Shown in pieces: positions 25,501 through 49,680 of a stretch of DNA of 49,680 nt; positions within the stretch are counted from its first letter, which is position 1, and the number at the start of each line of letters is the position of its first letter. The position numbers and the translations under genes were made by a program. Below the pieces are notes generated by a model, which had not been told where the DNA came from, ran no database searches, and saw only the letters and a list, made by a program, of their open reading frames with translations. This stretch comes from a virus. The DNA is taken from the IMG/VR virus record IMGVR_UViG_3300029286_000061, positions 1 through 49,680 of that record; one strand, written 5' to 3'.

Positions 25501-26865
25501 AAGAGCTTCCCAAGCAGACTTTAATCTATACTGGTCGCCCTGCATCGTATCATTCTGGATATGTGCGGCAAGAAATGCTTTATTTGTATTTGTAACTTCA
25601 TCAGTATACCATTGTAGTTCTGTGCGTCCTGCACGAATAACAACAGCCATCTGAGGGCCGATTACTTTACCAAATGAACTCATTATCTGGCCAACAGACA
25701 AACCAGCATCACCAAGAGTTCCAAAAACATCCACAAGTGAATTTGTAGTTACATCAATATCTTCAAATGCAATACCCATTTCAGCAAGTTTCTTTGCTGT
25801 CTTGGTAGTAGGTGACGACAACTCAGCAAGTGCGTTACGCATTGCACGTCCTGCACGACTGGCTTGCATACCCGAATCGTACATTACATCAAGAATACCA
25901 ACAACTTCTTCTATGCTACGTCCAGCAACAGCGGCTACAGGGCCTACCTGATGCAAGGATGTTTTTAGTTTATCCATTGTAGCTTGTGACGATACAATAC
26001 CAGCAGTTAGTACATTTGCTATTCTATCAGATTCACGTGCGGCAAGTCCAAACTGTGCAAGAGTTACAGCAATTACCTCGGCTGTTTGCGCAAGGTCTTC
26101 ACCAGTTGCCTGAGCCATTGCAAGAGTACCATCCAAAGCCTGTATTGATTCTGTAGCAGAGTATCCAGCAGATGCCATATAGTACAATGCTTTTGCGGCT
26201 TCTGATGCAGTGAATCTAGTTGTTTCACCAGCATTACGTGCCGCAGAGTCAAGTGCACGCAAATCCTTCTCAGTTGCATTAGCTACAGACTGAGTATTAG
26301 CAAGAGACTGTTCATAATCGATTGTGACCTGAATCATCTGCTTAATGCCTTGAGTAACCATTTTTAGCATACGATGATTCAATGTATACATTGCAGTATT
26401 CTTTAAAGACGTAGCAATTTGCCCAAGAAGACTATTTTTACGTGCTTTTGCAAGTTCTTCTTCTGCTTTTTGCTCTTCCTTTAGTTTAAGTTTACGTGTG
26501 TCTGCAAGTTTTTTGCTAGTTTCTGTGTACTGTTGTGATTTTACAATCATTGAATCGAGAGTTTCTAGTATAACTTTATAGCTCTCTTGTTCAGCCTTGT
26601 AAGATTCATCAGATTGATCCGCACCCTGTTTCTTTTTGTACAGTGCTAAGTATTCAGTACGAAGTTTTGTAAGCTCTTTTAAATGTTTTGCTATTGTTTG
26701 ATTATTTCGTGTGGACAACTCTGTTATGTATGCAGACGTTTTTTCAGAGAATGTCTTTACTGAATCAGCACCTGTTTTAAGGAGTGTATCCAATGTCTGT
26801 AAATCAGCACGTAGTTGCTTCAACTCAAGACGTACACTACTACGAATCGTTCCAGCATCGGGCAT
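22540..26865 (-). CDS. Tape measure protein (TP901 family)
   Basis: 1441 residues with AAAAGGAGATAATC before ATG 26865. N-terminal 150 residues are coiled coil. A TP901-type core at about residues 170-370 contains EQSLANTQSVANATEKDL, FTASEAAKALYYMASAG, GTLAMAQATGEDLAQTAEVI and GRAMRNALAELSSPT. A long acidic/basic helix (residues about 800-1250) follows, then a hydrophobic stretch (SALYIGATSAAVAVQAGA near 1345). Length sets tail length; at about 1.5 angstrom per residue the tail would be near 215 nm. No peptidoglycan hydrolase motif seen. Confidence 0.93.
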   Translation of the reverse strand: MPDAGTIRSSVRLELKQLRADLQTLDTLLKTGADSVKTFSEKTSAYITELSTRNNQTIAKHLKELTKLRTEYLALYKKKQGADQSDESYKAEQESYKVILETLDSMIVKSQQYTETSKKLADTRKLKLKEEQKAEEELAKARKNSLLGQIATSLKNTAMYTLNHRMLKMVTQGIKQMIQVTIDYEQSLANTQSVANATEKDLRALDSAARNAGETTRFTASEAAKALYYMASAGYSATESIQALDGTLAMAQATGEDLAQTAEVIAVTLAQFGLAARESDRIANVLTAGIVSSQATMDKLKTSLHQVGPVAAVAGRSIEEVVGILDVMYDSGMQASRAGRAMRNALAELSSPTTKTAKKLAEMGIAFEDIDVTTNSLVDVFGTLGDAGLSVGQIMSSFGKVIGPQMAVVIRAGRTELQWYTDEVTNTNKAFLAAHIQNDTMQGDQYRLKSAWEALSITIMNGFMPAFRSVVQLMFTGIRQFNIWIKRMSGAHTVADDLANTMTELTTQQDEYTRLTSLLNDKTIDLTTSEKKLYEARRAILAQDMYKTLSDMATGYTKVAIEQEKLLDVFNYVAKEQQNQDDYIALAQDIRLKGIDEATAAEKKAFFERYQLLAQNTSTIQNEYSKIYRNADASGKKLLYTLDFNLAQIPLQITKIEDGVASLSRFTGVEEFFTAMADPSYYDALGPSTQHYTSIINITEEDIRQLKLTIGELALTASTSSSIMDESTTETIAQAGRLRAELALTDKHMEFIRLKSPKLADAIEASAQAWIESSKAVSEITAEEYEQIIALQDQIATTSAADKAIQQLNDSMLSNAQDTLTSSSNVETLNSAFALMKEEAVKSANALREQAEAQYEENQALIDGDDIVVGQHSRALLESFALTQRGIELSKINYHETMKLADIERQRLSAIGETTSAELESLLKRQQAYKLVQGVFTDYTQKLIEASQKQREDAIEESYANAKTTADIRKSYMDRLYIISDYRKNAQDELNTQYEKERATYETQRAERDADLKTTYEAELSGFDEYEQARIALAMKAEVDRVAEAERVRDSEYADIKLDDTKNQADKDRENTDILARYDAEVKDAATEREGAVADIEKKFSDERSSAYTRYLDLLGISEKEYTDAVGILYSALTAEQIQLLEYYRKEEKDALKKSEDAEEKRVETFKENIKDTISEIESVFSELDTLFSNIADGMIDDIDRVLDAQIEALDAELAAVLEEKGIADDTEEESLRKTLSDAKEEADEEAVIEAQKALDKYLIEQEYADKQTVLEEEATAKQNEIKYKSALASWYLDSASIASQGVVAIMNAIATGAKMINPVLSALYIGATSAAVAVQAGAHAVTYPQKEDYYESGGIVPGTTNGTQIIAGEHNKTELISNASQMANILSAIGNGGYAHGTTNMTVIIQTTDKREQARYTIEDVLNKGVITINPEKAIRTVLR

Positions 26866-31930: not shown

Positions 31931-32890
31931 TTAAGCCTTAATATAAGTAAGGTACATTTTGCCACGGTCAGCCGCACCATTCGCAATAATAGTCAAACCA
32001 TCAGCAGTAATAACACCACCAACAATAAGAGCACCACGAGTAAGTACATTGATAGTAGCACACACAAGAGCCGCTGAGATATCTGCACCAGCCGCACCGT
32101 GAGACAGTTTCAAAGTTCCAGCACCATTAGATGCAGAGCACACCAGCCACAGGTCAATAATTCTATCACCAACTGCAAGACCAGTTGTAGCATTTGCAAA
32201 TGTCAAACCAAGCCCAGTAGCATCAGCACCAACAACAAGTTCAACCACATTAGGCGTGTGTGCTTTCAGTGTAGCAACATCCAATCCAACTTCACCAATA
32301 GCTCCACCAACAGTAGTAGAAGCAATATCACCAGTCGGAGTGAATGTAGCAGTCTGACCATTGTCCTTAATCATTTTAAGAACAGAGCCAGAAACACCGA
32401 CAGCCGCATTGAGCGTAGCAATTGCAGTGGTAGCACCGGTAAGTGCACCATTTGCATCACGTACAAGTGCAAGGTCAGTACTTTGCACAAAGGGGCGGAA
32501 GGCAACCCAAGAATCATCAGCCGCCGCACTTGTAACAATACCAATAGCAATTGCAGGCGCACCTACAGCATTCTGGTCAACAAGATAACCTTCATTTGCA
32601 TTGACCTGCGGAATGAAGAACAGAGTGTTACCAATGGTGAAATGCCCAGCCATAAGGGCAACATCAGCAACTTGTGAGCAACGCACAGTGCGTTCAGCGG
32701 TAATATTGATATACCCAGTTTCACCTGCGAGGATACCGTCAATCTCACAAACTTCACCAAAGAAACCACCAAGATACACAAGTTCATTGTGCACCAGAGT
32801 CCGTGTGGTATTGTTTGTTACCAACTGCAACACATCAGACAGGGTTTCTTCATGAAAGTCATAATTCTTGTCATACGAAGTCATAGCCAT
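31931..32890 (-). CDS. DUF2190-like capsid decoration protein
   Basis: 319 residues. N-terminal half has LVYLGGFFGEVCEIDGILAG, ITAERTVRCSQVADVALMAG and FIPQVNANEGYLVD: a small beta-barrel domain like DUF2190/decoration proteins that sit before capsid genes. A middle module GSVLKMIKDNGQTATF and TTVGGAIGEVGLDVATLK closely resembles one in the tail fibre (14970-17507). The C-terminal half is Ala/Gly/Thr-rich beta. Confidence 0.65.
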   Translation of the reverse strand: MAMTSYDKNYDFHEETLSDVLQLVTNNTTRTLVHNELVYLGGFFGEVCEIDGILAGETGYINITAERTVRCSQVADVALMAGHFTIGNTLFFIPQVNANEGYLVDQNAVGAPAIAIGIVTSAAADDSWVAFRPFVQSTDLALVRDANGALTGATTAIATLNAAVGVSGSVLKMIKDNGQTATFTPTGDIASTTVGGAIGEVGLDVATLKAHTPNVVELVVGADATGLGLTFANATTGLAVGDRIIDLWLVCSASNGAGTLKLSHGAAGADISAALVCATINVLTRGALIVGGVITADGLTIIANGAADRGKMYLTYIKA

Positions 32891-32892
32891 GT

Positions 32893-33357
32893 TTACGCCT
32901 CCACCGAGCCGGTTTTGTTATTCGTCGAAGGAGTCACCAGAACCACATCGCTGGGGACGTACCCAACCTGTGTCGCCAGAAGAGTCTGCATCTTCTGAAT
33001 AGACTTCAGCGAACTGAGTCTCGTGATTTCCGCATCAATTGCCACACTGTCACCAGTCTTGAGCGCAAACAAACTCTTGGCAAGTTCAAGAACATCAGCA
33101 TCCTTAAAAGCTGTAGCCAATTTCATTTCACAAGTCTGTGTAAATACGGCACTACGTGCACTCAGTGTATCTTCAACAAACTTTACAATGTCCCCACCAG
33201 CTTTCTCTTCGGCTGTTTTAAGTTTCAACATCTGAGTTTTGTGCTCGTCAGTCAATACTTCGATACCAACACCTTTAAGGACGGTAGCTAAATCAGTTTT
33301 TGATTCGCCCGTCTTCAAAGAAGTCTGGATTTCAGCAATGTGCTGTTCAATAGTCAT
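32893..33357 (-). CDS. Nested scaffold protein (internal start)
   Basis: In-frame ATG at 33357 within the protease gene begins MTIEQHIAEIQTSLKTGESK and is preceded by AAAGGAGAAGGAACA, one of the best ribosome sites in the late region. It would give a separate 154-residue scaffold from the same frame, as Nu3 is nested in lambda gene C. Confidence 0.6.
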   Translation of the reverse strand: MTIEQHIAEIQTSLKTGESKTDLATVLKGVGIEVLTDEHKTQMLKLKTAEEKAGGDIVKFVEDTLSARSAVFTQTCEMKLATAFKDADVLELAKSLFALKTGDSVAIDAEITRLSSLKSIQKMQTLLATQVGYVPSDVVLVTPSTNNKTGSVEA

Positions 33358-34038
33358 TGTTCCTTCTCCTTTCTTATCACCACCGTCCGTGGTGTCTTGT
33401 ATCAATTTTCCTGTTTCATCATAATACGCAACTCGAAAATTGGATGAAACTATGTGTGCATCAGATGCGTGCATATCATGTTCGACAAGTGCATTTGTCT
33501 GATTCTTCACTGATTCAATTGCATACTGCTTAAAGTTGCCGTTATCATCAATCTCTATTCTACGTTTCTGCATGTCGCCTGTAGATGTTGCAAGCACACC
33601 AGCATTAACTTCACGCATTGTCTGTTCAACAAATTCTTTACCATCAGGACTTGTTTTTACAAGCAAACGGTTTCTTAGTAACAACCGTTCTCCATCAACT
33701 TTAGCACCAACGATATAGCCACTTGCAATAGCTCTTTTGTACATTTCTGTATCTTCATGGCCACGTGCATACAAAAAGCCTGGAATTGTATTCACAGCTT
33801 GTGCAAATGATTCTGCCCATTCTTTTGTAAGTACTATACTCCCTGACCACTGGTCAGTAGGATGTTCTTCACCAAGCAGAACCTCATTCACAAATTCAAT
33901 GGCTTCCATGTCACCAAACAAAGTCTTCACTTTTTGTGTATTGCCTACGGGAACAGTATCTACAGCAAATACAGAAGGACTCAATGCCTTACTTGAAAAT
34001 AGTGATTGATGAAGTTCAAAGTTGCTCTTCTTCGGCAT
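32893..34038 (-). CDS. Capsid maturation protease with scaffold domain
   Basis: 381 residues from ATG 34038 (GGAGGG upstream). N-terminal ~225 residues: VLTKEWAESFAQAVNTIPGF, ARGHEDTE (candidate catalytic His), GYIVGAKVDGERLLLRNRLL, VLATSTGD; a protease-like fold. C-terminal 155 residues are a helical scaffold with long Lys/Glu helices (TIEQHIAEIQTSLKTGESKT). This protease-scaffold fusion precedes the capsid gene. The portal stop overlaps the start by 23 bases. Catalytic residues need checking. Confidence 0.6.
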   Translation of the reverse strand: MPKKSNFELHQSLFSSKALSPSVFAVDTVPVGNTQKVKTLFGDMEAIEFVNEVLLGEEHPTDQWSGSIVLTKEWAESFAQAVNTIPGFLYARGHEDTEMYKRAIASGYIVGAKVDGERLLLRNRLLVKTSPDGKEFVEQTMREVNAGVLATSTGDMQKRRIEIDDNGNFKQYAIESVKNQTNALVEHDMHASDAHIVSSNFRVAYYDETGKLIQDTTDGGDKKGEGTMTIEQHIAEIQTSLKTGESKTDLATVLKGVGIEVLTDEHKTQMLKLKTAEEKAGGDIVKFVEDTLSARSAVFTQTCEMKLATAFKDADVLELAKSLFALKTGDSVAIDAEITRLSSLKSIQKMQTLLATQVGYVPSDVVLVTPSTNNKTGSVEA

Positions 34039-35599
34039 TTGTTCCCTCCTGTGGGGTATCTCCATCTTTTTTATTGTCGTAATCACCATCAGCAACACGC
34101 TGATTCATTGTATTATCTTGTGCCGCTTGCTTGTCTTTTTCGTGCTCAATAATAAACTTAGCTGTATCATCAATATCTTTCTTATGCTTTGTATCATCCT
34201 GTTCAACTTCAAGGATGTCAAACTTCTTTATTGTGGCATATATTTCTTTGTCCCCAATAATGTTTGCTTGACGCATTTTGATAAGTGATGTTGACAGCGT
34301 ATTTAAAGTATCAGCTTTCTCTTTTTCTGTTGCAAAGTCAGGTGTTGGCCATGTAAGGGTAAAATCATCCGTGTTGTATTCTTTGAATTCAACAAACCCT
34401 TTTATCATAAGTGCCATGACAATCAACTTACGCCAGCTTGTCGCATACTGCTGTTGTTTCTTGGCAATCTTCTTAATGTATGCAGGTCTTTGCTCTTTCA
34501 CAGAAGATAAGGATGCACCCATACTAGCGCCCATCATTATCTCAGGAGTCTGTCCACCTTCAATTATATTAGTGAATGTTTTCTCAATCACACTATTATA
34601 ATCACCAGTAGCTTTCCCAGATTCGGCATACTTGACATCCTCACGGTCAGATTCAATACCACCACCAGTGCTACAAAGGTACAGATCCCGTTGATCAAGT
34701 GTGAGTTTCACAAGCCCTTTTCTCAACTGTTCATAGTATCCAGCACCAAAGTTGTTTTCAACCCACTCTTTTACATCATTCGTATGGATAACCATTTTTG
34801 GATGTCCATCACGTTTCTGTGCTCTATTGGCTTCCACAGTTATGTCATGGTATAACTTCAATTGAGGTTCGATATTCTCAATTTCACTGTGCCCATGCTG
34901 TTCCCATGGTTCTGCATCATTTAAAAATGTAACAATTGGGAGGAAACCGAACACATTTCGATGTGTGACAGCAGGTTTATTAATAGTTGCGACATCACAT
35001 GTAACTTGTTTGGTTATTCGTTTCTCGTCAATTGTTACATCAATTGTAATATTATGTACTTGGTCAGCAGTGTCTTTGAAACTAAATTCATCTTTGATTA
35101 TGTATCCCACTATTTTCTTAGTCATGGGGTCAATAAAGGTGGTTTTTATAGTTTCAGGGCGTATCACTTCAAATCTTATTGTACCATCCAAATCTATCTG
35201 TGGCCACACATATGCTGTGCCTTCCCTTTCAACAATACGATGTACAATATTGAATGGCAGTTGATTATTAAATGTCTTTACAGCTTCCAGCACTGCATTG
35301 TCTTTAGACCTAACAATAGGTACACCAATGAATGATACATTAGCATCTATAATTGGTTTTACAAGCTGTGCGGCAAGTGCATATCTATTATCTGTATTAT
35401 GATACAGACTACGTACGAGTTTTGCATCTACAATAGGTGGTGTAGCATAGTTCTCAGCAGTGTACTGATTGTCACCATCATGCACAATAGTGGTTCGTTC
35501 ACGCACAACAAATTCCTCACCGAACAACTGTTCCATGAGTGAGGTAGCAAATCTTGCCATCTTTTGTTTTGTTGTCTTCTTTCCTACTGATGTTGCCAT
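34016..35599 (-). CDS. Portal protein
   Basis: 527 residues with GGAG before ATG 35599. Shows the usual portal sequence blocks: NRYALAAQLVKPIIDANVSF near 70, IVEREGTAYVWPQIDLDGTI near 122, PVEPWEQHGHSEIENIEPQL-type wing/clip region near 230 (actual DAEPWEQHGHSEIENIEPQL), then QKRDGHPKMVIHTNDVKEW, and a Gln/Lys/Asp-rich C-terminal tail. Lies between terminase and protease, the invariant portal slot. Confidence 0.75.
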   Translation of the reverse strand: MATSVGKKTTKQKMARFATSLMEQLFGEEFVVRERTTIVHDGDNQYTAENYATPPIVDAKLVRSLYHNTDNRYALAAQLVKPIIDANVSFIGVPIVRSKDNAVLEAVKTFNNQLPFNIVHRIVEREGTAYVWPQIDLDGTIRFEVIRPETIKTTFIDPMTKKIVGYIIKDEFSFKDTADQVHNITIDVTIDEKRITKQVTCDVATINKPAVTHRNVFGFLPIVTFLNDAEPWEQHGHSEIENIEPQLKLYHDITVEANRAQKRDGHPKMVIHTNDVKEWVENNFGAGYYEQLRKGLVKLTLDQRDLYLCSTGGGIESDREDVKYAESGKATGDYNSVIEKTFTNIIEGGQTPEIMMGASMGASLSSVKEQRPAYIKKIAKKQQQYATSWRKLIVMALMIKGFVEFKEYNTDDFTLTWPTPDFATEKEKADTLNTLSTSLIKMRQANIIGDKEIYATIKKFDILEVEQDDTKHKKDIDDTAKFIIEHEKDKQAAQDNTMNQRVADGDYDNKKDGDTPQEGTNAEEEQL

Positions 35600-35874
35600 G
35601 CTTCAACTCCATCTTGTTTTACAAGTCGTAATGCACTTCTATATGCACTTATCTTTAGCCGCACAACAGCAAGTAAATTCTTTCTCCAAGGTAGGTATGT
35701 AAAAGCAAAAAACAAGTTCTGCTTGTGCTCTTTCTCCAATTGATAGTGTGGATACTTTGCAACAAAATCCAAAAGCATGGCAAAATATTCGGCTGTATCA
35801 TCCAGTCGTTTTGTAAGTATTGCATATTCATGTTCATACGCTCTACAGATTGCTTCATGCTTTAATTTGTTCAT
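35584..35874 (-). CDS. Small helical protein between terminase and portal
   Basis: 96 residues, all helical and basic (RAYEHEYAILTKRLDDTAEY, WRKNLLAVVRLKISAYRSAL). Overlaps the terminase stop by four bases and the portal start by 16. Unknown function; possibly a packaging accessory protein. Confidence 0.5.
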   Translation of the reverse strand: MNKLKHEAICRAYEHEYAILTKRLDDTAEYFAMLLDFVAKYPHYQLEKEHKQNLFFAFTYLPWRKNLLAVVRLKISAYRSALRLVKQDGVEAWQHQ

Positions 35875-37328
35875 TCACCATACCTCAGATTCTGCATCAC
35901 TTCTCCTGTACCTTCATTGTACAGCAGTTTGAAGAATGTCATAAATCCACCACTTGCGGCGTCTGCTTGGTCATCATGTCCATTCTGTGTCCCATCTGTA
36001 CATCCACCAAGTTCGTCAATGAATGACCTATTCCATGCACCACGTACAAGGTACACATTGCCAGATTTCAATTGTGATGCAAGAGGCCTCCAATACGTCA
36101 GCTTGCTCTTACGTTTGTTATTCCAGTGCAGGTTATATCCCATCAGTTGCTTTGTGTAGTATTCTTTCTCAAGTTTACCAGCAGACCCAGGGTCTTGCTC
36201 CTGCCACAATTCAACTTCCGGCCCATCCTGGCGTGCAGTAGCTTTTATCAGCTCTTCAACATCATGTGGCTCATATCTGCCTCTTCGCACATCTAGTATG
36301 ACCACTCTATCATCTTTTGTAAGACCTACGAGACAGCCCACAGTATAGTCAGGGTCGGTATTTGAGTCACTCGGCATAGTAGATGCCCTATCCCAATATC
36401 GTACCAATCTCTTATAATAATCGGCTTTTGGTGCTTGTTCCAGCATCTTCCAGTAGGTTGTCTTGAACAACTCACCAGCAGATGGTCTTGCAAACCAGTT
36501 ACCAAGTTTCAATCTCTTACGTTCATAATCAAACAAAGCATCCAATGACGCATTATAATCTGGGTCATCCCGTAATGCCTCATTATCATCTAGCATGAAC
36601 TTGATGAATGTCAGACTCTTCGGTTGCAATATCCCTTTCTCATAATCAGCAGGGTATGATTCTTTCACTTCCTCTGGATTATTGAACCACAGTATCTCTC
36701 CATCACGTCTTACAAAGTATCTCAGTTTTCCACACCGTTCAGCAATTGGAAAACCTTCATCATCAATCCAATATGCAAGCAGATTAACAAGAAAACTATC
36801 AGGGTCAGGGTTACATGACGCACTCATGTAGGGACGTATGCCACATGTCGTTCTATTTCTAGACAGCATATAGAAGAATTGTGTCTCTGTAAAGTGCTGT
36901 AATTCATCAAACTGTATCAGTGCAAGCTGTGATCCATCCCATGCCTTAACGCTCTTCTCATATTGCAGATGGTCAAATGTTAACTTTGCTCCACTAGGAA
37001 ACGTCCATGTATGTCTTGGTGTCTCTTTTGACCGCGCATTGAACGGGGTGTACATATCAACTGACATGTCCCACAATCCACCGCCAGCCGTAATCTGTGT
37101 GCTCTGTCTTCTGAACGTAGCACACTCAAATCCACGCCGATGCACATGTCGCAATGGGTTCATCAGTAGCAAGTGACTCTTGCCCCCTCCTGCCGCACCC
37201 CCGCCAATTGTTATATCAGCCGATGAAGACAAGAACCGTTCCTGCTGTCCCTTGTAAGGACGAAGTATACGCACTTCCTGTTTTGGTCTGTCTTGCAACG
37301 TCTGTATCACGGTGTCTCCTTCCGACAT
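35871..37328 (-). CDS. terL: Terminase large subunit
   Basis: 485 residues from the ATG at 37328; a TTG three codons earlier is possible because no good ribosome site precedes either. Walker A TIGGGAAGGGKS near residue 41-52; Walker B ALIQFDEL near 140; coupling motif SASCNPDP near 170; nuclease residues YWDRAST ... DPDY near 320 and VILDVRRGR near 345; then a Glu/Asp-rich C-terminus with GGCTDGTQNGHDDQADAASG. ATPase and nuclease of the packaging motor. The segment just upstream carries the 20-bp repeated site. Confidence 0.93.
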   Translation of the reverse strand: MSEGDTVIQTLQDRPKQEVRILRPYKGQQERFLSSSADITIGGGAAGGGKSHLLLMNPLRHVHRRGFECATFRRQSTQITAGGGLWDMSVDMYTPFNARSKETPRHTWTFPSGAKLTFDHLQYEKSVKAWDGSQLALIQFDELQHFTETQFFYMLSRNRTTCGIRPYMSASCNPDPDSFLVNLLAYWIDDEGFPIAERCGKLRYFVRRDGEILWFNNPEEVKESYPADYEKGILQPKSLTFIKFMLDDNEALRDDPDYNASLDALFDYERKRLKLGNWFARPSAGELFKTTYWKMLEQAPKADYYKRLVRYWDRASTMPSDSNTDPDYTVGCLVGLTKDDRVVILDVRRGRYEPHDVEELIKATARQDGPEVELWQEQDPGSAGKLEKEYYTKQLMGYNLHWNNKRKSKLTYWRPLASQLKSGNVYLVRGAWNRSFIDELGGCTDGTQNGHDDQADAASGGFMTFFKLLYNEGTGEVMQNLRYGE

Positions 37329-37334
37329 ATGTAG

Positions 37335-37354
37335 CAATAATAGGAACCGAAGCT
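37335..37354 (-). repeat. 20-bp site upstream of terL (copy 1)
   Basis: CAATAATAGGAACCGAAGCT on the plus strand. An exact inverted copy lies at 41950-41969 and a 17/19 copy at 37884-37902. It sits between the small terminase stop and large terminase start. Confidence 0.85.
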
Positions 37355-37357
37355 AGT

Positions 37358-37735
37358 TTACTTTGGGTCTCTCCCATTGTCTGGCATATATACTTCGACT
37401 TTTACCATTGTCTCCCCATTTCCATCCTTTTCTTTTGGCGCGAAGCGTTCTCTGTACAGTATCTTGCCGAGTTCAACAGTCGCTGAAAGTTTTACGGATT
37501 CATTGCGTGCTGTTTCACTTATGTTGATAAGTTTCTGGATTATATTGGCCTTACATGCTTGCTCAAGTTTGTTCAGCCTCAGCAAAAAGAACCTATCATC
37601 CTCCATAATCTTACGTTCTTCATCACATACATTGTACATTTTAAGAGATAGTTCATAGTCATATGTCCCTGAATATGCAGAAACAATAGCTTCCATCTTC
37701 TCTGCTGTACTCATTTCCGGTTTAGGTGCATTCAT
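37358..37735 (-). CDS. Terminase small subunit
   Basis: 125 residues from ATG 37735 (GAGGTAG upstream). Helical throughout: MSTAEKMEAIVSAYSGTYDY, CDEERKIMEDDRFFLLRLNK, IIQKLINISETARNESVKLS, ATVELGKILYRERFA. Nothing else in the window occupies the small-terminase slot, and it is the first gene of the late operon, immediately before terL. Recognises the packaging site; DNA-binding motif not clearly visible. Confidence 0.6.
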   Translation of the reverse strand: MNAPKPEMSTAEKMEAIVSAYSGTYDYELSLKMYNVCDEERKIMEDDRFFLLRLNKLEQACKANIIQKLINISETARNESVKLSATVELGKILYRERFAPKEKDGNGETMVKVEVYMPDNGRDPK

Positions 37736-37753
37736 ATAGACTACCTCATGGTT

Positions 37754-37782
37754 AGAATACACCCTTTATACTGAACTGTCAA
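37754..37782 (-). promoter_or_regulatory. Late promoter
   Basis: On the minus strand TTGACA (37777-37782), 17-bp spacer, TATTCT (37754-37759). The start point would be about 12 bases before the small terminase ATG, leaving a very short leader that just holds the GAGGT site. It runs away from the early promoter at 38417. Confidence 0.7.
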
Positions 37783-37883
37783 GCATTAAATAGCGATTAT
37801 TACAACAATATGGCATATTCCGTAAAGGTGTCAGGATACCACAGTATGCTTGGAAACACCCTGAAATACCGGTTCCTGTATGG

Positions 37884-37902
37884 CAATAATGGAAACCGAA
37901 GC
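37884..37902 (-). repeat. Near-copy of the 20-bp site (copy 2)
   Basis: CAATAATGGAAACCGAAGC matches 17 of 19 bases of the terL-upstream site in the same orientation, and lies about 550 bases away, next to an inverted CGGTTCC. Confidence 0.6.
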
Positions 37903-38111
37903 ACTTTTAGGTCATTCACACAAGGTTTTCAGGGAAAACCATGCTCTACGTCAATGACGGTTGGACTATTGGGGACTAGTTGGATAGTTATGTGTCTGGA
38001 AAAGTGTACCCTTACGCCAATGATGCTATAGGGAATGGTTACATGTCTCAGGGAGGGCTGGAATGGGGTATCTGGTGGGGGTATGGCACAAAGGACGGTG
38101 TGATGTATTGT

Positions 38112-38138
38112 GTGGAAGGTGTGGAAGGTGTGGAAGGT
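38112..38138 (+). repeat. Three tandem 9-bp repeats
   Basis: GTGGAAGGT repeated three times without gaps; falls inside the possible decayed gene, where it would read V-E-G repeats. Confidence 0.8.
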
Positions 38139-38216
38139 GTGCACTTTATGATGTGACATGCATCGGCAGTATAGATATTTGTGTTAAATATAGTATTAAT
38201 GTTAAGAGTGTGATGT

Positions 38217-38959: not shown

Positions 38960-39310
38960 ATGTGGAATAATGTAGAAACAAGTAGAAAAATTGACCAATT
39001 GCACTAATTACTATCGAATATGGATAGAGTACCGCATGGTAGTGGAATAGACTACAATTGGACTATCGATATCAAGCATGATAATCTAATTATGAACAAT
39101 GCCTGGCATTTGTTGAACCAAAATGGATATTACATTGACCACATTCCGTTTACTGTGACAGTACCATTACGTAGCCCTCAGAATTTCACACTTACATGGA
39201 CACACTACAGGCAACATGCCTATCCAATCAGAGTCGCAAACAGCACTGCTACGCTTGACTACATCGCTGAAACAATAGGAAACTGGCTTGACGAAAGTCT
39301 AAACTCTTAA
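38960..39310 (+). pseudogene. Early gene split by an in-frame TAA (39005-39007)
   Basis: AAAGGAAATC precedes ATG 38960. The frame reads MWNNVETSRKIDQLH, then TAA, then LLSNMDRVPHGSGIDYNW and on to a normal stop at 39310 without a frame change. The segment LSNMDRVPHGSGIDYNW matches a phage family in which a helix leading into 'NRxPxGSGID.DW' is part of one protein, so the stop cuts a real domain. The 96-residue remainder could restart at ATG 39020, but no ribosome site precedes it. Confidence 0.6.
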
Positions 39311-39324
39311 AAAGGATGATATCC

Positions 39325-39579
39325 ATGACAAAACAAGAATTTATTGACAAGCTAAAACCTATTTTTGGTGAACCTACATCCATGGATGCACGAATCAGTA
39401 TGTACAGATACAAGCGTATAACAATACTGACAAGTGACTATATTGTAACAGTGTATAACTGGCATGCATCATGTACACTAGTACTTGACACAGTGTACAT
39501 GCTTACAGTTACATGTGATGCTGTTGCAGTCACACTACAAGATAAAATGACCAAAATATCATTTTTACAAAAGGAATAA
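39325..39579 (+). CDS. Small early protein (84 aa)
   Basis: ATG 39325 is preferred over 39316 because AAAGGA then sits at proper distance. Begins MTKQEFIDKLKPIFGEPTSM; then beta strands (YRYKRITILTSDYIVTVYNW). No family recognised; follows the split gene closely. Confidence 0.5.
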   Translation: MTKQEFIDKLKPIFGEPTSMDARISMYRYKRITILTSDYIVTVYNWHASCTLVLDTVYMLTVTCDAVAVTLQDKMTKISFLQKE

Positions 39580-39583
39580 CAAA

Positions 39584-39952
39584 ATGACACAAAATGAAGC
39601 TATCCACGCTATCCAGAAATTTGCCCTCTTACACAATGCGAAGTACGCGAAAGAGAATGTGTACAAACGGTACGGAACCGACTATAAGGGAAAGGCTAAA
39701 GGGTATACCTACAATAAGCATACCTTTACACTAACCAACCTCATTGTGCAGGTGAACCAACCAAACAAGGATGTTGTGAACCGAGAGTATCCAGAAGTGA
39801 CACTTGCTATCGATGATGGTTGTGTAATTGTGCACTATAGAGACAAGTATACAACAAACTCGGTCACTATTTCATTGTACAACCTAGGTGCCTATTGCAA
39901 TGACATTGACTTGCGATTGTCAAAGGATGCTACTATTGTGGTATTGAAATAG
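39584..39952 (+). CDS. Early protein of unknown function (122 aa)
   Basis: AAAAGGAAT ribosome site. Begins MTQNEAIHAIQKFALLHNAK; long Tyr/Lys-rich middle (YKRYGTDYKGKAKGYTYNKH) then beta strands (VTLAIDDGCVIVHY). No family recognised. Last gene before the 1.25-kb gene-free region. Confidence 0.5.
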   Translation: MTQNEAIHAIQKFALLHNAKYAKENVYKRYGTDYKGKAKGYTYNKHTFTLTNLIVQVNQPNKDVVNREYPEVTLAIDDGCVIVHYRDKYTTNSVTISLYNLGAYCNDIDLRLSKDATIVVLK

Positions 39953-39956
39953 TTGG

Positions 39957-40170
39957 CATGTGTTATATAGCATGTGTTATATAGCATGTGCCATACAGCA
40001 TGTGTTAAGTAATGTGTGATACACAATGTGTACCATGTATTAAGTACCATGGAGTACGTAACATTTGCCAAGTAGTGTGTGGCACACAGAATACAACAAG
40101 TGCCATGTGCCAAGTAGTGTGTGTGTTATGTGCTATGTTACACATGTGGTACACTGCATAGTGTGTGGCA
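39957..40170 (+). repeat. Degenerate GTG-rich repeats
   Basis: CATGTGTTATATAG occurs twice in tandem (39957-39984); GCCAAGTAGTGTGTG occurs twice (about 40067 and 40107); many TGTGNCA/CATGTG words in between. Densely repetitive and gene-free. Confidence 0.7.
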
Positions 40171-40401
40171 ATATAAGGGTCAAATAGGGTAAAAAAGACC
40201 GACCTTTAAAAGTAATTTATTGCTAAAACCCCCCTAGATTTTTCAGGTAAACCCATTTGTAGAAAGGAGTTGCATTTTAAAAGTATACTGAGAACTTCCT
40301 AAAAAATTTCTATGTGTGTACTGACGTAATAACCGGCTGTTTTAGAAATGCCACTATTGTATTTGTGTATACACGTTGTAACAGCATTTGTAACAGTGTA
40401 A

Positions 40402-40413
40402 GTCTATATAGAC
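40402..40413. promoter_or_regulatory. 12-bp perfect palindrome
   Basis: GTCTATATAGAC, followed at once by AAAGGAG. Two TTGTAACAG copies lie 12 bp apart just upstream (40376, 40388). Operator-like; bound factor unknown. Confidence 0.45.
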
Positions 40414-40485
40414 AAAGGAGATAAAATAAAAAGGATTACTACTGTGACACGTGCTACATGAAAAAAGTCATTTTTTGGAAAACCG

Positions 40486-40509
40486 TTAATGTGAACGTAT
40501 TCACATTAA
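40486..40509. promoter_or_regulatory. CRP/FNR-type palindromic operator
   Basis: TTAATGTGAA (40486-40495), CGTA, TTCACATTAA (40500-40509): perfect 10-bp arms. The core TGTGA-N6-TCACA (40490-40505) is the CRP consensus. No phage CRP-like gene is visible, so a host regulator would be the partner. Confidence 0.6.
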
Positions 40510-40790
40510 TTATTTCAGGTCTTAAAAGTCGTGTAACAAGTGTCACACTCGTAACCATTTAGAAAATAAATCCATATAACACAAGGAATAGCAGTGTGAC
40601 AAAAGTTGTGACACGGTGTATACAAAAATACAATGTTCACAAAAAAAAAGTGCCCTCCTACCACTTTAGTGAAAATAAGAGGTACTAAACAGCAAATACA
40701 GTTAACTATATGCAGTAGAATGAATTAACAGAAAGTCGATGAAACAACAGGAAGTATCGCCTTATAGGCTGTAGCTGGCACATGGCATGT

Positions 40791-40856
40791 ATTACATGTA
40801 AGGCATTTCAGGATTACATGTAAGGCATTTCAGGATTACATGTAAGGCATTTCAGG
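40791..40856 (+). repeat. Three perfect 22-bp iterons
   Basis: Three gapless identical 22-bp units at 40791-40812, 40813-40834 and 40835-40856. Each starts with A then the palindrome TTACATGTAA, followed by GGCATTTCAGG. No spacers, so not a CRISPR array. Confidence 0.85.
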
Positions 40857-41052
40857 ACACCCTTTGTAGTGAATATAAGACAGCATTTACAACATGTAAA
40901 GATGGTAGCCATAAAGGTGGCACATAGCATATATAAAGCATCATATACCACACACTGGCTAGGCTAGGCCAGCTACAGTACAGCCACGGTTCCGTTTTGA
41001 ATATTCTGAACAAGCGTTGAGAATAGCGATTGCAGATAGTGAAAAATATTTG

Positions 41053-41081
41053 TTGACATTATCCAGTATTCATGGTAATAT
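41053..41081 (+). promoter_or_regulatory. Strong promoter for the 41201 gene
   Basis: TTGACA (41053-41058), 17-bp spacer, TAATAT (41076-41081). Leader of about 110 bases to ATG 41201. Confidence 0.75.
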
Positions 41082-41200
41082 GAAGCATAAAGAAAAGTTG
41101 ATTATTGAAAACGACCGGATGGATTATTTGGAATAACAAAACATGGCACGTGTCACGTGACCTTTGTTACCAAGGAACCCATACCACAAGGAGAACTAAC

Positions 41201-41716
41201 ATGGAATCTAATACCGAGAAACAGCTAACAGAAAAAGAGCTTGCACAGCTCAAAAAGAATCAGGAACGGGCCGAAGCATTGGATGCAATCCGCAATTCCG
41301 TACGCGAGTACAAGGAAGAGATTGCAAAGGCATGTACTGATGCTGAAATCCCTGACGAGGTTATTGCTAACCTTGAGTACATCATTGGTAACAAGCGTTC
41401 CAAGAAAGAGAGAGTCAAGAAAGGGCGGGCGCCTGCTCTCAAAGATGTGGTGCGTGGCCTGTTCACCAATGTTGGTGACACCAAAGATGAAATGGAAATC
41501 TTTGTTGAATTGCAGATTGGACGGCCGGAGATGCAGTTCAGGATTGTGGAGCTGATCAAGAAATCCGAACCTGCTAACCGCCCGTGGATTACGTTCACCA
41601 TTCCCGAAGGCCAGAGGATGGGCGTGTACACTCTGGTAGCCGTTGGTGAGAATCCTCCCGAAGGGTGGGACGGATATGTTCCGACCGTGAAGAAAGCTGA
41701 CGAACCCGCTTTCTAA
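41201..41716 (+). CDS. Probably highly expressed early protein (171 aa)
   Basis: ATG 41201 with ACAAGGAG upstream. N-terminal half is a charged coiled coil (EKQLTEKELAQLKKNQERAE, LDAIRNSVREYKEEIAKACT), a basic linker (NKRSKKERVKKGRAP), then a beta-rich domain (EMEIFVELQIGRPEMQFRIV, MGVYTLVAVGENPPEGWDGY). Codon use is GC-richer than neighbours, fitting strong expression or transfer. Its own strong promoter and lone position beside the origin candidate suggest a DNA-binding or host-takeover role; not recognised as a family. Confidence 0.6.
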   Translation: MESNTEKQLTEKELAQLKKNQERAEALDAIRNSVREYKEEIAKACTDAEIPDEVIANLEYIIGNKRSKKERVKKGRAPALKDVVRGLFTNVGDTKDEMEIFVELQIGRPEMQFRIVELIKKSEPANRPWITFTIPEGQRMGVYTLVAVGENPPEGWDGYVPTVKKADEPAF

Positions 41717-41949
41717 GTAAGTGGTATCTGTATCTTGTGCCAATATTGGGCACATGTCAAAGTGAATGGCTTGGCGGGCACGTGGCATATTGCATATACT
41801 ATAGTAAACCCCCGTGCCCATCCTGTCAAAGTCCTTGAACCCCGGCTGTTCTGTGTCACATCGTACAAGGCATACGTATCAGGTAGCACGTTCGCCTAAC
41901 AGCAGAAACATGTGAAATAGTGTATGTTATATGTACTACTGCCACAGAC

Positions 41950-41969
41950 AGCTTCGGTTCCTATTATTG
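41950..41969 (+). repeat. Inverted exact copy of the 20-bp site (copy 3)
   Basis: AGCTTCGGTTCCTATTATTG, the exact reverse complement of 37335-37354, 4.6 kb away on the opposite transcription arm. Sequence around it shows no further similarity. Confidence 0.85.
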
Positions 41970-42098
41970 TTATTATAGTATGTGATGTAATATAGCGTGC
42001 TATATTGTGACAGTTGAATGAACATTATCCGGTGACACCCGTTGTATATAACGTACAATACTCTTTGGGTGTCACATATTTTGAGAAAGATAGAGCAG

Positions 42099-42136
42099 AA
42101 TACACTTATATATGAACATGAGTGTATTTTATTTTA
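42099..42136 (+). terminator. AT-rich terminator-like hairpin
   Basis: AATACACT (42099-42106) pairs with AGTGTATT (42121-42128), 14-base loop, followed by TTATTTTACC. Weak stem; may end the 41201 transcript. Confidence 0.35.
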
Positions 42137-42200
42137 CCTTTTTGGATGCAAAGAAAAGTATACAGTATTATGCAAGACAGATTAATAAGGAGTGGCAAGA

Positions 42201-42707
42201 ATGGTTGAAAACTTTAAACACACAGTAAGAGTTGGCACAATGCAAACATCTGGTGGCCGTTGGGTTCCTGTCTATGTACAGATACACTATTTGGATGGTG
42301 AACTTGACTTGTATGCATAGACACTAAAAATACAAGGGAATACGGCATATACGCTAAAGCGTGTGAAACACTTTAGTAGAGAGTGGAACAGTAGCCGGTG
42401 TGCTAAACTTGCTGAAATATGGAAACGTTGGCGCATGAACTATATGCGTGCAGGTACACATGAGCAGATGGATTTCTTGTATAAGCACTTTATGCAACAT
42501 TCATATGGTGCTGACAGTAATTGGCCAGATTTTGCTACAGCCTGTGACGCACTGAAAGAGGCTGGGCTGTACAGAGTAATGCTGGATGGTGTCCCATACA
42601 ACTATGGTACAGGGTGGTTGAAAGAACCAGTACCGGAGGATGTGCTTGAATGGCTGGTAGCATTGCCAGCGTATGAATGGAACGATGATGATGAAGATAC
42701 ACAATAA
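42201..42707 (+). pseudogene. Early gene split by an in-frame TAG (42318-42320)
   Basis: AAGGAG precedes ATG 42201. The frame reads MVENFKHTVRVGTMQTSGGR and VPVYVQIHYLDGELDLYA, then TAG, then TLKIQGNTAYTLKRVKHFSR and a C-terminal part with LAEIWKRWRMNYMRAGTHEQ and YNYGTGWLKEPVPEDVLEWL. Both halves fit one phage family (small beta domain followed by 'W.RW.lN.MRAG'), and there is no stop between TAG and 42707. A GTG at 42363 could restart the second half but it is buried in a hairpin (GTGT/ACAC, CTAAA/TTTAG) and lacks a ribosome site. Confidence 0.7.
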
Positions 42708-42728
42708 CACGTAAAGGAGACACTAGTA

Positions 42729-43088
42729 ATGTTGACAAAAGAAGAGAAGAAACTACAGGCTAAGCTGAAAACAGAACATGCTATGCAGAAACCTATTTCA
42801 CGGCGTGCATTGCGTGAGACATTGGGTAAGGTGCAGGGATGGGAGTTCCTTACACAGAAGGAAAAGCAGAATATTCTGGATACGGTACTTGCTACACCCG
42901 AACCACGAAAGTATCTAGCTGGTGCTACTAAGTATGCAATGGCATGGTACATATTACAGGCCATTGAATGGGCACACACTAAACAGCACAAAAGTTATTG
43001 GTTGTCTGTGTACTGTAAGGTGAGAGATGGGTTGATTAAACAGGCAAGAAAAACAGAAGAGTTATTGGTTGACAAGGATGTGATATGA
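42729..43088 (+). CDS. Helical early protein (119 aa)
   Basis: AAAGGAGACA ribosome site, ATG 42729. Lys-rich N-terminus (LTKEEKKLQAKLKTEHAMQK), then RRALRETLGKVQGWEFLTQK and a Trp/Tyr-rich helix WYILQAIEWAHTK. Stop overlaps the next start (ATGA). No family recognised. Confidence 0.55.
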   Translation: MLTKEEKKLQAKLKTEHAMQKPISRRALRETLGKVQGWEFLTQKEKQNILDTVLATPEPRKYLAGATKYAMAWYILQAIEWAHTKQHKSYWLSVYCKVRDGLIKQARKTEELLVDKDVI

Positions 43089-43438
43089 AAAAGAACACAG
43101 GTATCCTATTACGTGAACCAATAGCAATTGGCACAGGTTATGTATTATGTGTAGTACCTCTCACTACTGAAATGAGATTGCGTGTATTACGTGATTCAGA
43201 TGAACCCAACATGTACACACTAGAACTAGAGGAACTTGTACAGTGGACTTCATCACATAATGATTACATGTGTGCATGGCAGATAGTATCCAGTGTAGAG
43301 CGTGTGTATATTCCAGAACCAGCATGGGAGGATTATCAGAAGCTGGCGTTGACATATTTTTTTTGTGAATACACATATAGTAATAGAAGGATGGTGATCA
43401 AAGGAATTGAAGAAAACAAAGATGATGTTCACTATTGA
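43085..43438 (+). CDS. Early protein of unknown function (117 aa)
   Basis: Starts by ATGA overlap. Begins MKKNTGILLREPIAIGTGYV, beta-rich, then YMCAWQIVSSVERVYIPEPA and a Tyr/Phe-rich helix. No family recognised. Followed within 31 bases by the tRNA-like sequence. Confidence 0.5.
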   Translation: MKKNTGILLREPIAIGTGYVLCVVPLTTEMRLRVLRDSDEPNMYTLELEELVQWTSSHNDYMCAWQIVSSVERVYIPEPAWEDYQKLALTYFFCEYTYSNRRMVIKGIEENKDDVHY

Positions 43439-43468
43439 GAAGTATCATGTAGCGATATACTTGGTTTG

Positions 43469-43537
43469 AGTGTGGTAGTTCAGCGGTAGCACATTGTACA
43501 ATAGTACAAAGGGCTTGGTTCAATTCCGAGCCACACT
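43469..43537 (+). tRNA. tRNA-like gene with aberrant anticodon arm
   Basis: Acceptor AGTGTGG (43469-43475) pairs with CCACACT (43531-43537); D arm GTTC-AGCGGTA-GCAC (one mismatch); T arm CTTGG-TTCAATT-CCGAG with canonical loop. D region GTAGTTCAGCGGTAG resembles tRNA-Gly. The anticodon arm TTGTA-CAATAG-TACAA has a six-base loop (or eight if the closing pair opens), so no anticodon can be assigned. Total 69 bases, shorter than a normal tRNA, no encoded CCA. Could be a decayed tRNA or a tRNA mimic. Confidence 0.6.
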
Positions 43538-43584
43538 TTATGACTCTCCTAGAGAGTTTAATGTGTATGAACAAGGAGATTGGT

Positions 43585-43962
43585 ATGGGTGGCAGAGACT
43601 TTAGTGAAGCATTACGTAAAATCAGGGAGAATGGTGGCGGGGCATCTATCGGATGTTATATTACGGACATTGAAGAGATTTGTAAGCACATTGCATGACC
43701 AAAACTAGTGGGTCTTATAGCTGGCGATTTGATTCGTCAGTTGCTGGACTGTAATGGCACATTCGCAACAACAAATGAGGGTGATGCTACAGTATTTTTA
43801 CGTTATCTTACAGAAGGTGGACACAATAGCATCGCTTGTCAGGGTGCACTTGGGGAAAGATTCTTTGATGCGGATATTGTCATATGCTACTCGGTACAGG
43901 GATGTGCTATACTGGATCCAGCCGATTCACGAATTACGTTAAGGTTTGAATTTAAAAAGTAG
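43585..43962 (+). pseudogene. Early gene split by an in-frame TGA (43696-43698)
   Basis: AAGGAG at 43573, ATG 43585. The frame reads MGGRDFSEALRKIRENGGGA, then SIGCYITDIEEICKHIA, TGA, then PKLVGLIAGDLIRQLLDCNG and a C-terminal domain with DATVFLRYLTEGGHNSIACQ ending at 43962. The second half resembles phage proteins with 'LIAxLL ... FLRYLTEGG'. GTG 43708 could restart it, but no ribosome site is present. The frame is open on both sides of the single stop. Confidence 0.55.
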
Positions 43963-44038
43963 TTGGGGAACAGTAACTACACTCAACATGTAGACTGCCT
44001 TATATTTAGGGAGATATACACTAAAAGGAGCCACGAGT

Positions 44039-44260
44039 ATGGAGACAAGCGATAGACAGCTGTTGATTGATATTTGTTTCGAGATTGGCATTATGACTGC
44101 AACACATGAATGGTTCAGGGGTAAGACAACAGAAGAGGTTGCTGACTGGATTCGTACAAAATTAAGTAACTGTGGTTTTAAAACAATACCTGTTGGTATG
44201 TCATGGGGTGTGTTAGCAGATACACTACACAACCCTTTAAAGGAGACACACAATGTCTGA
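44039..44260 (+). CDS. Small early protein (73 aa)
   Basis: AAAGGAG at 44023, ATG 44039. Helical: METSDRQLLIDICFEIGIMT, WFRGKTTEEVADWIRTKLSN; ends KETHNV. Overlaps the next start by eight bases. No family recognised. Confidence 0.5.
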   Translation: METSDRQLLIDICFEIGIMTATHEWFRGKTTEEVADWIRTKLSNCGFKTIPVGMSWGVLADTLHNPLKETHNV

Positions 44261-44585
44261 ATCGGAATGGCTGAAAGCGAGAGCTAAAAAGAGTGACTTG
44301 GCTTACATAGATTTTTTGAAAAGAGAAAATGGAGTACTGAAAGCAGAGAATATCACCCTTCGCACTTAAATACTAGTTTGGCATCAGTTACCTGAAGTGC
44401 CGGAGAAACGTGATAGCTACTGGTGTAGATTTGCAAGTGAGGGTGGTTTCTATTCACTTGATGCATATTACCCAGAAAACAATCACTGGGAAAGATTCAG
44501 CAATGACTATTACCATGGAACTGTTATGATAGTTACAGATACACCGAGCGCATGGACAACTTTGCCATTAGAGGAAGAGTTATGA
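44253..44585 (+). pseudogene. Early gene split by an in-frame TAA (44367-44369)
   Basis: AAAGGAGACA precedes ATG 44253. The frame reads MSESEWLKARAKKSDLAYID and FLKRENGVLKAENITLRT, TAA, then ILVWHQLPEVPEKRDSYWCR to the stop at 44585. A coiled coil ending 'ENxxLR' leading into 'W..LPE.P...YW' (a DUF551-like pattern) is a normal layout for one phage protein. A restart could only use GTG 44397, inside the W-H-Q-L-P-E motif, which would remove its conserved start. The stop at 44585 overlaps the next ATG. Confidence 0.6.
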
Positions 44586-46400: not shown

Positions 46401-46406
46401 TTATTT

Positions 46407-46501
46407 TGGGGAGTGGTGGTAAGGGCAACCACGCTGGCCAGCAGAGGTTGATATCACAACCGGACGCAACAGAGATGTAGGTTCAACGCCTACCTCCCCC
46501 T
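46407..46501 (+). tRNA. Second tRNA-like sequence, lacking a normal anticodon loop
   Basis: GGGGAG (46408-46413) pairs with CTCCCC (46494-46499); D arm GTGG-TAAGGGCAA-CCAC (46416-46432); T arm GTAGG-TTCAACG-CCTAC (46477-46493) with canonical loop. Where the anticodon arm should be there is GCTGGCCAGC (46433-46442), a palindrome with no room for a seven-base loop, followed by GGTTG-ATATCA-CAACC (46446-46461), which could be a long variable arm or a displaced anticodon arm. About 95 bases. Not a working tRNA by sequence; decayed or mimic. Confidence 0.5.
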
Positions 46502-46529: not shown

Positions 46530-47342
46530 ATGAAACAAAAGTATGTAAGCAATGTACAACGTGCTTTAGACCATAAACAGTATGTTGACAAGGAGAGAAA
46601 GAGTATGAAGATTGACAAGAGCAAGGTGATATGGGATGCAACATCAGCGCAAGCAGAAGCATTGCGTGATAAGCATGTAATTGGATTCACAAAGTATGAT
46701 GGGTGTGATGCTGTATACGGTGTACTTACACGCATAGAGCCAACAAAAGGCAACACACTGCTGTATCATTTCCAAGTAAGAAGTAGTGACGGGTGTACAA
46801 CCAAGTTCCGTTTCATCATCCCTGATGAATCACAGTTGGAATTGGTTGACGTTACAAAACAAGCATCTTGTACACCAGTTAAACAAGAACCTGATACGAT
46901 AGGTGTATGGAAACCACAATACGGCGAGCTTGTTGTGATTACAAGCTATGTGTCTAGTAGCAAGCCATTTATACGCATATTTGTTGCTAACAATGGTAAT
47001 ACTGTACAGGTTGTTGCACCAAAGGATATGCATAGATTCATGGGTGGTTTGGTATTTGATATTGTTGAGTATGCAGATGTTACTATGGAAAAGATAAATG
47101 GTACAAATCTTGCACCAGCGCCCAAGAAACGAATACCGTTTGACTTTGAGAGTTTTCAACCATACCGTGAAAAATGGGTGCATGAAAAGGGCATGTCTAT
47201 TTTGTGCAGAATTGAAACATTTAGTGATACTGGTGTGTATATAGCTTATGTACATAGGGAGATAGAGTTCCTTACATATGGAGCACTTGAGCAGAATTGG
47301 CTGTTTGATGATGAAACACCATGCAACAGGGAGGTAGTGTGA
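46530..47342 (+). CDS. Early protein of unknown function (270 aa)
   Basis: AAAGGAGAG, ATG 46530; a second ATG at 46605 also has AAGGAGAG, so a shorter 245-residue form (starting MKIDKSK) is possible. Several beta modules: GFTKYDGCDAVYGVLTRIEP, GELVVITSYVSSSKPFIRIF, GMSILCRIETFSDTGVYIAY. They may be two or three related small domains. No family recognised. Confidence 0.55.
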   Translation: MKQKYVSNVQRALDHKQYVDKERKSMKIDKSKVIWDATSAQAEALRDKHVIGFTKYDGCDAVYGVLTRIEPTKGNTLLYHFQVRSSDGCTTKFRFIIPDESQLELVDVTKQASCTPVKQEPDTIGVWKPQYGELVVITSYVSSSKPFIRIFVANNGNTVQVVAPKDMHRFMGGLVFDIVEYADVTMEKINGTNLAPAPKKRIPFDFESFQPYREKWVHEKGMSILCRIETFSDTGVYIAYVHREIEFLTYGALEQNWLFDDETPCNREVV

Positions 47343-47513
47343 ATGACTAGTGATAGTTATAATTTTATGGTACAGAGCATGAAAGCTGGTATAGTTTTTG
47401 CACACATAGTGTCAGCTATGCTTGATGATTCAGTACAGCGTGCACAAGAACAACTGGGAGCTGAGTGCATAAGATTAATGGACTATGATGTAAAGTATAT
47501 ATTGATATACTAA
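47343..47513 (+). CDS. Small early protein (56 aa)
   Basis: ATG 47343, with GGGAGG from the end of the previous gene as ribosome site. Helical: MTSDSYNFMVQSMKAGIVFA, LDDSVQRAQEQLGAE. No family recognised. Confidence 0.45.
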   Translation: MTSDSYNFMVQSMKAGIVFAHIVSAMLDDSVQRAQEQLGAECIRLMDYDVKYILIY

Positions 47514-48862: not shown

Positions 48863-49270
48863 ATGAACCGAAAAGAACTTGATGAAAAGGTACGTGCATA
48901 TAATGCACGTGCCCTTATGAAACAGGATAGAGTTATTGCAAATCATGTGGAGTATGTTGTGTGTCCATGGGGAAAGTTCAGTCTCACAAAAGCTGAACGG
49001 AAAAATAAGACACCCGAACAGATAATGAAACTGCGTAAAAGTCGCTGGAAAGCAGAACGTGTTATAAGCAGACTAGGGCGTGAGAAGGCCATGGAGTATG
49101 GTGTAATAAATGCTGACCACACATTTAATGAAGCTAAGTATGATGAACTGGTGGCCATGGCACGTGATGCACAAGCAGAAGCACAGCGTCTTGAAATGGT
49201 GAAGAAACTGGAACCAGTGAAAGCTACAGCAGAACAAGTTGAAGAACTTGTAGCACAAGGTGAGAAATAA
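48863..49270 (+). CDS. Basic helical early protein (135 aa)
   Basis: AAAGGAG, ATG 48863. Lys/Arg-rich helices (LDEKVRAYNARALMKQDRVI, LRKSRWKAERVISRLGREKA), then a coiled-coil end (ARDAQAEAQRLEMVKKLEPV). Could bind nucleic acid. No family recognised. Confidence 0.5.
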   Translation: MNRKELDEKVRAYNARALMKQDRVIANHVEYVVCPWGKFSLTKAERKNKTPEQIMKLRKSRWKAERVISRLGREKAMEYGVINADHTFNEAKYDELVAMARDAQAEAQRLEMVKKLEPVKATAEQVEELVAQGEK

Positions 49271-49315: not shown

Positions 49316-49319
49316 AAGA

Positions 49320-49680
49320 TGAAAGGAACGTTTAAAATCACAATGGCATACTTGGAAGGCTTGGGTGCTTGCAAATCTGGACTGGCCGCGTTTGGGGAAG
49401 CATATCCAAAAGGTGGCGAGTATCAGGAGGTCTTGAACCGTTGTTGCGCTGAAGGACACATAGATTGGGCTATGTGGTTGCTGTTAAAGGTTGGAAATAC
49501 CGAGGACATGCGATTTTATGAAGAAGAGATATCTGACGATAAACGTGATATCGTGTTTGCCGGGAGTATTGAGTTTAAGTTTGAGGCTAGATTGCGGAAT
49601 TTGATTGCTGGCAGGGACATCAAGGCTGGCGGGTTCATCAAGGCTGGCGGGTTCATCAAGGCTGGCGAGTTCATCGAGGC
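49320..49680 (+). CDS. Hexapeptide-repeat protein, N-terminal part
   Basis: ATG 49320 with AAGGAGGGG upstream. N-terminal domain: MKGTFKITMAYLEGLGACKS, FGEAYPKGGEYQEVLNRCCA, IDWAMWLLLKVGN; then VFAGSIEFKFEARLRNLIAG and the start of the x-x-I-[KE]-A-G array, running off the window. Continues at base 1 (see 1-512), giving a protein of about 239 residues on the circular molecule (assembled repeat number). The 'L..LGAC...L..F...YP.GGEYQ.VL ... DWA.WL' start is shared with other phage x-x-I-x-A-G repeat proteins. Confidence 0.75.
49527..49680 (+). repeat. Terminal redundancy with bases 1-154
   Basis: Bases 49527-49680 match 1-154 except one position: T at 49653 against G at 127 (Phe versus Cys codon). 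Joining at this overlap restores the repeat-protein gene, so the window is one circularly joined genome of about 49,526 bp. Confidence 0.9.

Follow-up and report, generated by a model that had tools for sequence, protein, structure and literature searches.

In-frame stop codons in bacterial genomes are commonest in phage-type genes, a portion of them is believed to undergo read-through, and many have been argued to yield some full-length protein (Belinky et al. 2021, PMC7918605). The stops described there recur at matching positions in orthologues, for which dN/dS values below 1 were measured. In-frame stops are also found in some genes of stop-recoded phages (crAss-like and others), which reuse one stop type as a sense codon, such as TAG as Q (PMC7886860, PMC9523058). 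Finally, ordinary phage pseudogenes created by nonsense mutation have uncut relatives, are found among accessory genes only and carry one lesion per gene.

Here, we analysed four early genes of an uncultivated virus, each of which contains a single in-frame stop codon. They are similar to the bacterial and prophage cases in their single in-frame stop, uncut relatives and enrichment in phage-type genes, but the comparison here is with distant relatives alone. As in the recoded phages, the stops are present in some genes only; however, each affected gene of this phage has a single stop, every stop type is represented, and all three are normal terminators. The likeness to ordinary nonsense pseudogenes extends to the uncut relatives, the restriction to accessory genes and the one lesion per gene, whereas the presence of four such genes in one 6-kb stretch, with no frameshift, is a difference.

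Genome and near relatives

Virus record IMGVR_UViG_3300029286_000061 makes up the whole window, that is, the 49,680 bases analysed here. Window bases 1-154 are the same as bases 49527-49680 with 1 mismatch, and because of this terminal overlap of 154 bases the genome is complete and circularly permuted, with a length of ~49.5 kb. The assembly break falls inside an array of 18-base repeats that encodes a repeat protein (units such as FIKAGG and FIEAGE) and whose copy number is beyond the resolution of the assembler. The features discussed below are listed in Table 1.

Close relatives were sought in viral, genome, phage and plasmid collections, and only the IMG/VR contig L002 was recovered, with 100% identity to the window across 5,362 bases (32,728-38,089). 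This contig ends 870 bases short of gene 1 and covers none of the four genes. Judging from sequence matches (Table 1), the host of this phage may be archaeal, though other genes have a bacterial look. In addition, a late gene at 20541-21854 (-) was found to contain tandem repeats of ~120 bases with 69-75% identity, at 20650-21172. In the right arm of this dense genome, a gene-free stretch of ~1.2 kb (39953-41200) holds 14-base repeats (GCATGTGTTATATA) and three 22-base repeats (ATTACATGTAAGGCATTTCAGG); it is perhaps an origin or decayed DNA.

Table 1. Positions of the interrupted genes and of other features in the window
Feature	Position	Strand	Internal stop	Remarks
Gene 1, GSGID-type phage protein	38960-39310	+	TAA 39005-39007, codon 16 of 117	
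Gene 2, HTVRVGT...W.RW..N..RAG...Y.YG..WL family protein	42201-42707	+	TAG 42318-42320, codon 40 of 169	
Gene 3, orphan protein	43585-43962	+	TGA 43696-43698, codon 38 of 126	Both parts coding-like, same frame
Gene 4, orphan protein with W..LPE.P motif	44253-44585	+	TAA 44367-44369, codon 39 of 111	Both parts coding-like
Weak fifth candidate ORF	37941-38156	+	TAG 37977-37979, codon 13	Second part 58 codons
Early and replication genes (helicases, primase, polymerase)	~0-13 kb and 38-49.7 kb	+		Flank the break point
Virion genes	Between the two early/replication arms	-		
Terminase	35874-37337	-		Highest identity: Methanoculleus virus, 46%
Tape measure protein	22543-26865	-		Best E-value among matches listed: Methanosarcinales virus
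tRNA-like gene	43468-43539	+		Inside the cluster of interrupted genes
Second tRNA-like RNA	46406-46501	+		Weak matches

Layout of the interrupted genes

A first-pass annotation made from the sequence alone had described four early genes with one internal stop each, and our frame translations match this description exactly. In all four, a Shine-Dalgarno sequence and a start codon are followed by 15-39 codons, the stop, and then 71-128 open codons in the same frame. The good ribosome sites reported at the starts were found again (AAAGGA in gene 1, AAGGAG in genes 2, 3 and 4), and, as also stated there, none of the four second parts has a good ribosome site ahead of its first start codon. Past the stop, the frame stays open for 100, 128, 87 and 71 codons in genes 1-4; with the measured out-of-frame stop density of 0.087, runs of this length have chance probabilities of ~1e-4, 9e-6, 4e-4 and 2e-3, respectively.

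In genes 2, 3 and 4, the two parts are both coding-like by score and share one frame. Their second parts stand at percentiles 0.37, 0.55 and 0.16 among true-frame stretches, and scores at this level were reached by 0 of 4000 wrong-frame stretches. The codon usage of gene 1 is atypical, and its recognition rests on homology. These results support the view that each pair of parts is a single interrupted gene and not two genes, by way of relatives for genes 1 and 2 and of coding statistics for genes 3 and 4.

Two other tandem same-frame pairs (46530-47342 with 47343-47513, and 48863-49270 with a frame beginning at 49319) are ordinary neighbouring genes, each with a ribosome site of its own. A home-made gene caller revealed no further interrupted gene in the rest of the genome apart from the weak fifth candidate, and a scan of the unassigned stretches of the right arm gave no clear frameshifted gene. 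The second part of the fifth candidate is coding-like (P 0.0003 against wrong frames), and its TAG at 37977 is identical in contig L002; no relatives of it were found. This ORF ends in GTGTGGAAG repeats.

Relatives of the interrupted genes

At least three of the genes had been said to look like known phage proteins. Relatives were indeed found for genes 1 and 2, but none for gene 3 in the searched collections, and the resemblance of gene 4 to DUF551 (PF04448) was not borne out by the Pfam profile, which gave no match at E <= 10 in a read-through six-frame search and none by hmmscan. No relatives of gene 4 were found in the searched collections either.

The eight relatives of gene 2 come from three Caulobacter phages, Lysinibacillus phage LC76P1 and four IMG/VR contigs. 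The stop position is uninterrupted in all of them (8/8), and in most it falls on or beside the V/I of SISGVEG / SLSGVIG. The N-terminal part is recognisable ahead of the stop, with VRVGTMQTSGGR...DGELDLYA-stop in the window aligned to VRIGTSKTSGGR...DGKISISGVEG in relative L007, and the family signature is kept. The presence of an inserted segment, an intron or a ribosome-bypass element is not supported, as the alignment spans the stop without any additional sequence. In an AlphaFold model built from a seven-sequence alignment (mean pLDDT 72), the third strand of an N-terminal beta meander ends at residue 40, and a helical remainder follows. Because the stop precedes this remainder in the model, the short product would lack most of the fold.

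Three relatives of gene 1 were identified: L017, which is the Selenomonas plasmid pSRC3 and was also seen as L019, together with L018 and L020. In all of them the frame begins upstream of the stop position and continues past it uninterrupted. The residue at the stop is K in L017 and also, counting back from PHGSGID, in L018. For genes 1 and 2, the alignment to relatives, suggested as a check in the first-pass annotation, was favourable to its reading of one interrupted gene: the stop position is uncut in the eight relatives of gene 2 and in the three of gene 1, and none of these proteins ends or begins there.

It had also been pointed out that all four stops are one C-to-T change away from a sense codon, with cytosine deamination as a possible cause. 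This argument must be abandoned as a tautology: a single C-to-T change in CAA, CAG or CGA always yields TAA, TAG or TGA, respectively, and the pattern is uninformative because it is true of any stop codon. Moreover, the residues found at the stop position in relatives are mostly V/I for gene 2 and K for gene 1, not Q.

Distribution and probable origin of the stops

The clustering of the stops in a 6-kb arm, regarded at first as the striking part, is real but modest: all four genes fall among the ~22 right-arm genes of a total of ~66 (hypergeometric P ~0.01). No interrupted genes were found among the ~19 left-arm and ~25 late genes, and the replication and virion genes are intact. Such clustering fits what purifying selection is expected to produce if only accessory genes can be lost.

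We consider it probable that four accessory early genes were recently inactivated, each by one independent nonsense mutation. Besides the open stop position in 8/8 relatives of gene 2 and 3/3 of gene 1, this explanation is favoured by the differing stop types, the lack of a robust common signal, the ordinary background stop usage and the presence of one stop per gene in 4 of the ~22 right-arm genes, which is consistent with random scatter. Each gene would now yield just an N-terminal peptide of 15-39 residues. The damage would be recent, since no extra stops or frameshifts have accrued and gene 2 still carries its family signature, and lesions would be confined to the arm of small hypothetical genes because nonsense hits in replication or virion genes get purged. 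Loss of function, its recency and relaxed selection are what we infer here from a single interrupted frame in each gene and, for two of them, uncut distant relatives.

The finding of a frameshift or second lesion in 0/4 genes counts against decay. In its favour, stops arise from just 3-6% of the single substitutions possible in these genes, so that a few nonsense hits are to be expected where constraint is absent. There are also two coding-like orphan remnants in the vicinity (40981-41136 and the fifth candidate, 37941-38156), a weak hint of further broken genes in the right arm. If the stops are indeed ordinary, this uncultivated phage would be a tidy example of accessory-gene loss in progress, and it calls for caution, as automatic gene callers would report the second parts only or miss the genes.

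Alternative explanations

Ribosomes that end at the internal stop could re-initiate at a nearby ATG or GTG, giving low-level second parts and genes that are effectively split. Gene 1 has an ATG 12 bases 3' of the stop and gene 3 a GTG at 9 bases, and coupled restart across such distances is established in bacteria. However, the nearest start is 27 bases away in gene 4 and 42 in gene 2, the second parts have no good ribosome site in any of the four genes, and the relatives of genes 1 and 2 are unsplit. We regard restart as unlikely, although no alternative fares better.

Programmed or leaky read-through, by which a minor share of full-length protein would be made beside a predominant truncated form, is a more doubtful proposal. 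The stops are clean, single and free of other lesions, which is taken as a sign of possibly functional genes in PMC7918605. Common signals were evaluated by resampling four random codon positions, with measures that were post hoc and picked from many. CTA at +2 is common to 3/4 stops (stop-NNA-CTA; post hoc P 0.024), and ACTA is found within 15 bases after 4/4 (post hoc P 0.007); both are points for read-through, the latter being also counted against plain decay. ACTA also follows natural stops, as in TAG ACTATG (after 5485-6144) and TGA TACTA (after 9780-10175). Also counted against plain decay is the location of 3/4 stops at codons 38-40, within three codons of each other (post hoc P 0.005). 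A further point against decay is that each stop falls within the first 36% of its gene (post hoc P 0.016), with detection itself also biased towards long second parts. No common downstream RNA fold was found after the four stops (z -1.3, -2.5, -1.8 and -0.1 for genes 1-4), and the motif sharing that emerged when the four contexts were aligned and resampled was weak and post hoc. The sharing of ACTA, CTA and position leaves loose ends and no convincing shared read-through signal. All three stop types are involved, two of the four being TAA, which is generally the least leaky, and the stop is present in no relative of genes 1 and 2 at the distance available (~22-39% identity). If the stops were nevertheless read through, the phage would have a regulatory scheme acting on all three stop codons, for which we know of no precedent. 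Restart and read-through, taken jointly, would account for about a quarter of the probability.

Slightly less probable still is an error of sequencing or assembly, or a consensus drawn from a mixed population that carries the stops as minor or polymorphic variants. The record is metagenomic, it ends in the 18-base repeat array, and one base differs across the overlap of its ends. On the other hand, base quality looks good, the adjoining 5362 bases are fully identical in L002, and four substitution errors that are all stops and all in one arm would be implausible.

It is very improbable that a stop near codon 40 is kept deliberately in a set of early genes, with short and long forms made by way of a recoding signal effective at every type of stop codon (stop-NNA-CTA or a downstream ACTA), perhaps aided by the odd tRNA-like RNAs of this arm.

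The tRNA-like gene inside the cluster matches the Rfam tRNA family at 39.4 bits and has a palindromic anticodon stem (TTGTA/TACAA) with a loop of only 6 bases (CAATAG); ARAGORN reported one tRNA-like gene, with a 2-base anticodon. The gene in the cluster is probably unable to decode normally and is perhaps a decoy or a decayed tRNA. Codon reassignment, already dismissed in the first-pass annotation on the grounds that all three stop types are hit, is excluded because these three types occur within genes and all three also terminate the 31 intact early genes (TGA 17, TAG 7, TAA 7). A suppressor tRNA or an altered code is barely credible, despite the tRNA-like gene within the cluster, as its loop CAAUAG offers no stop-reading anticodon after U33, three stop types are beyond the reach of one tRNA, and the terminators are as just listed. 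The second tRNA-like RNA was matched to the skipping-rope family at 27.6 bits (cut-off 36.7) and to tRNA at 25.4 bits (cut-off 29).
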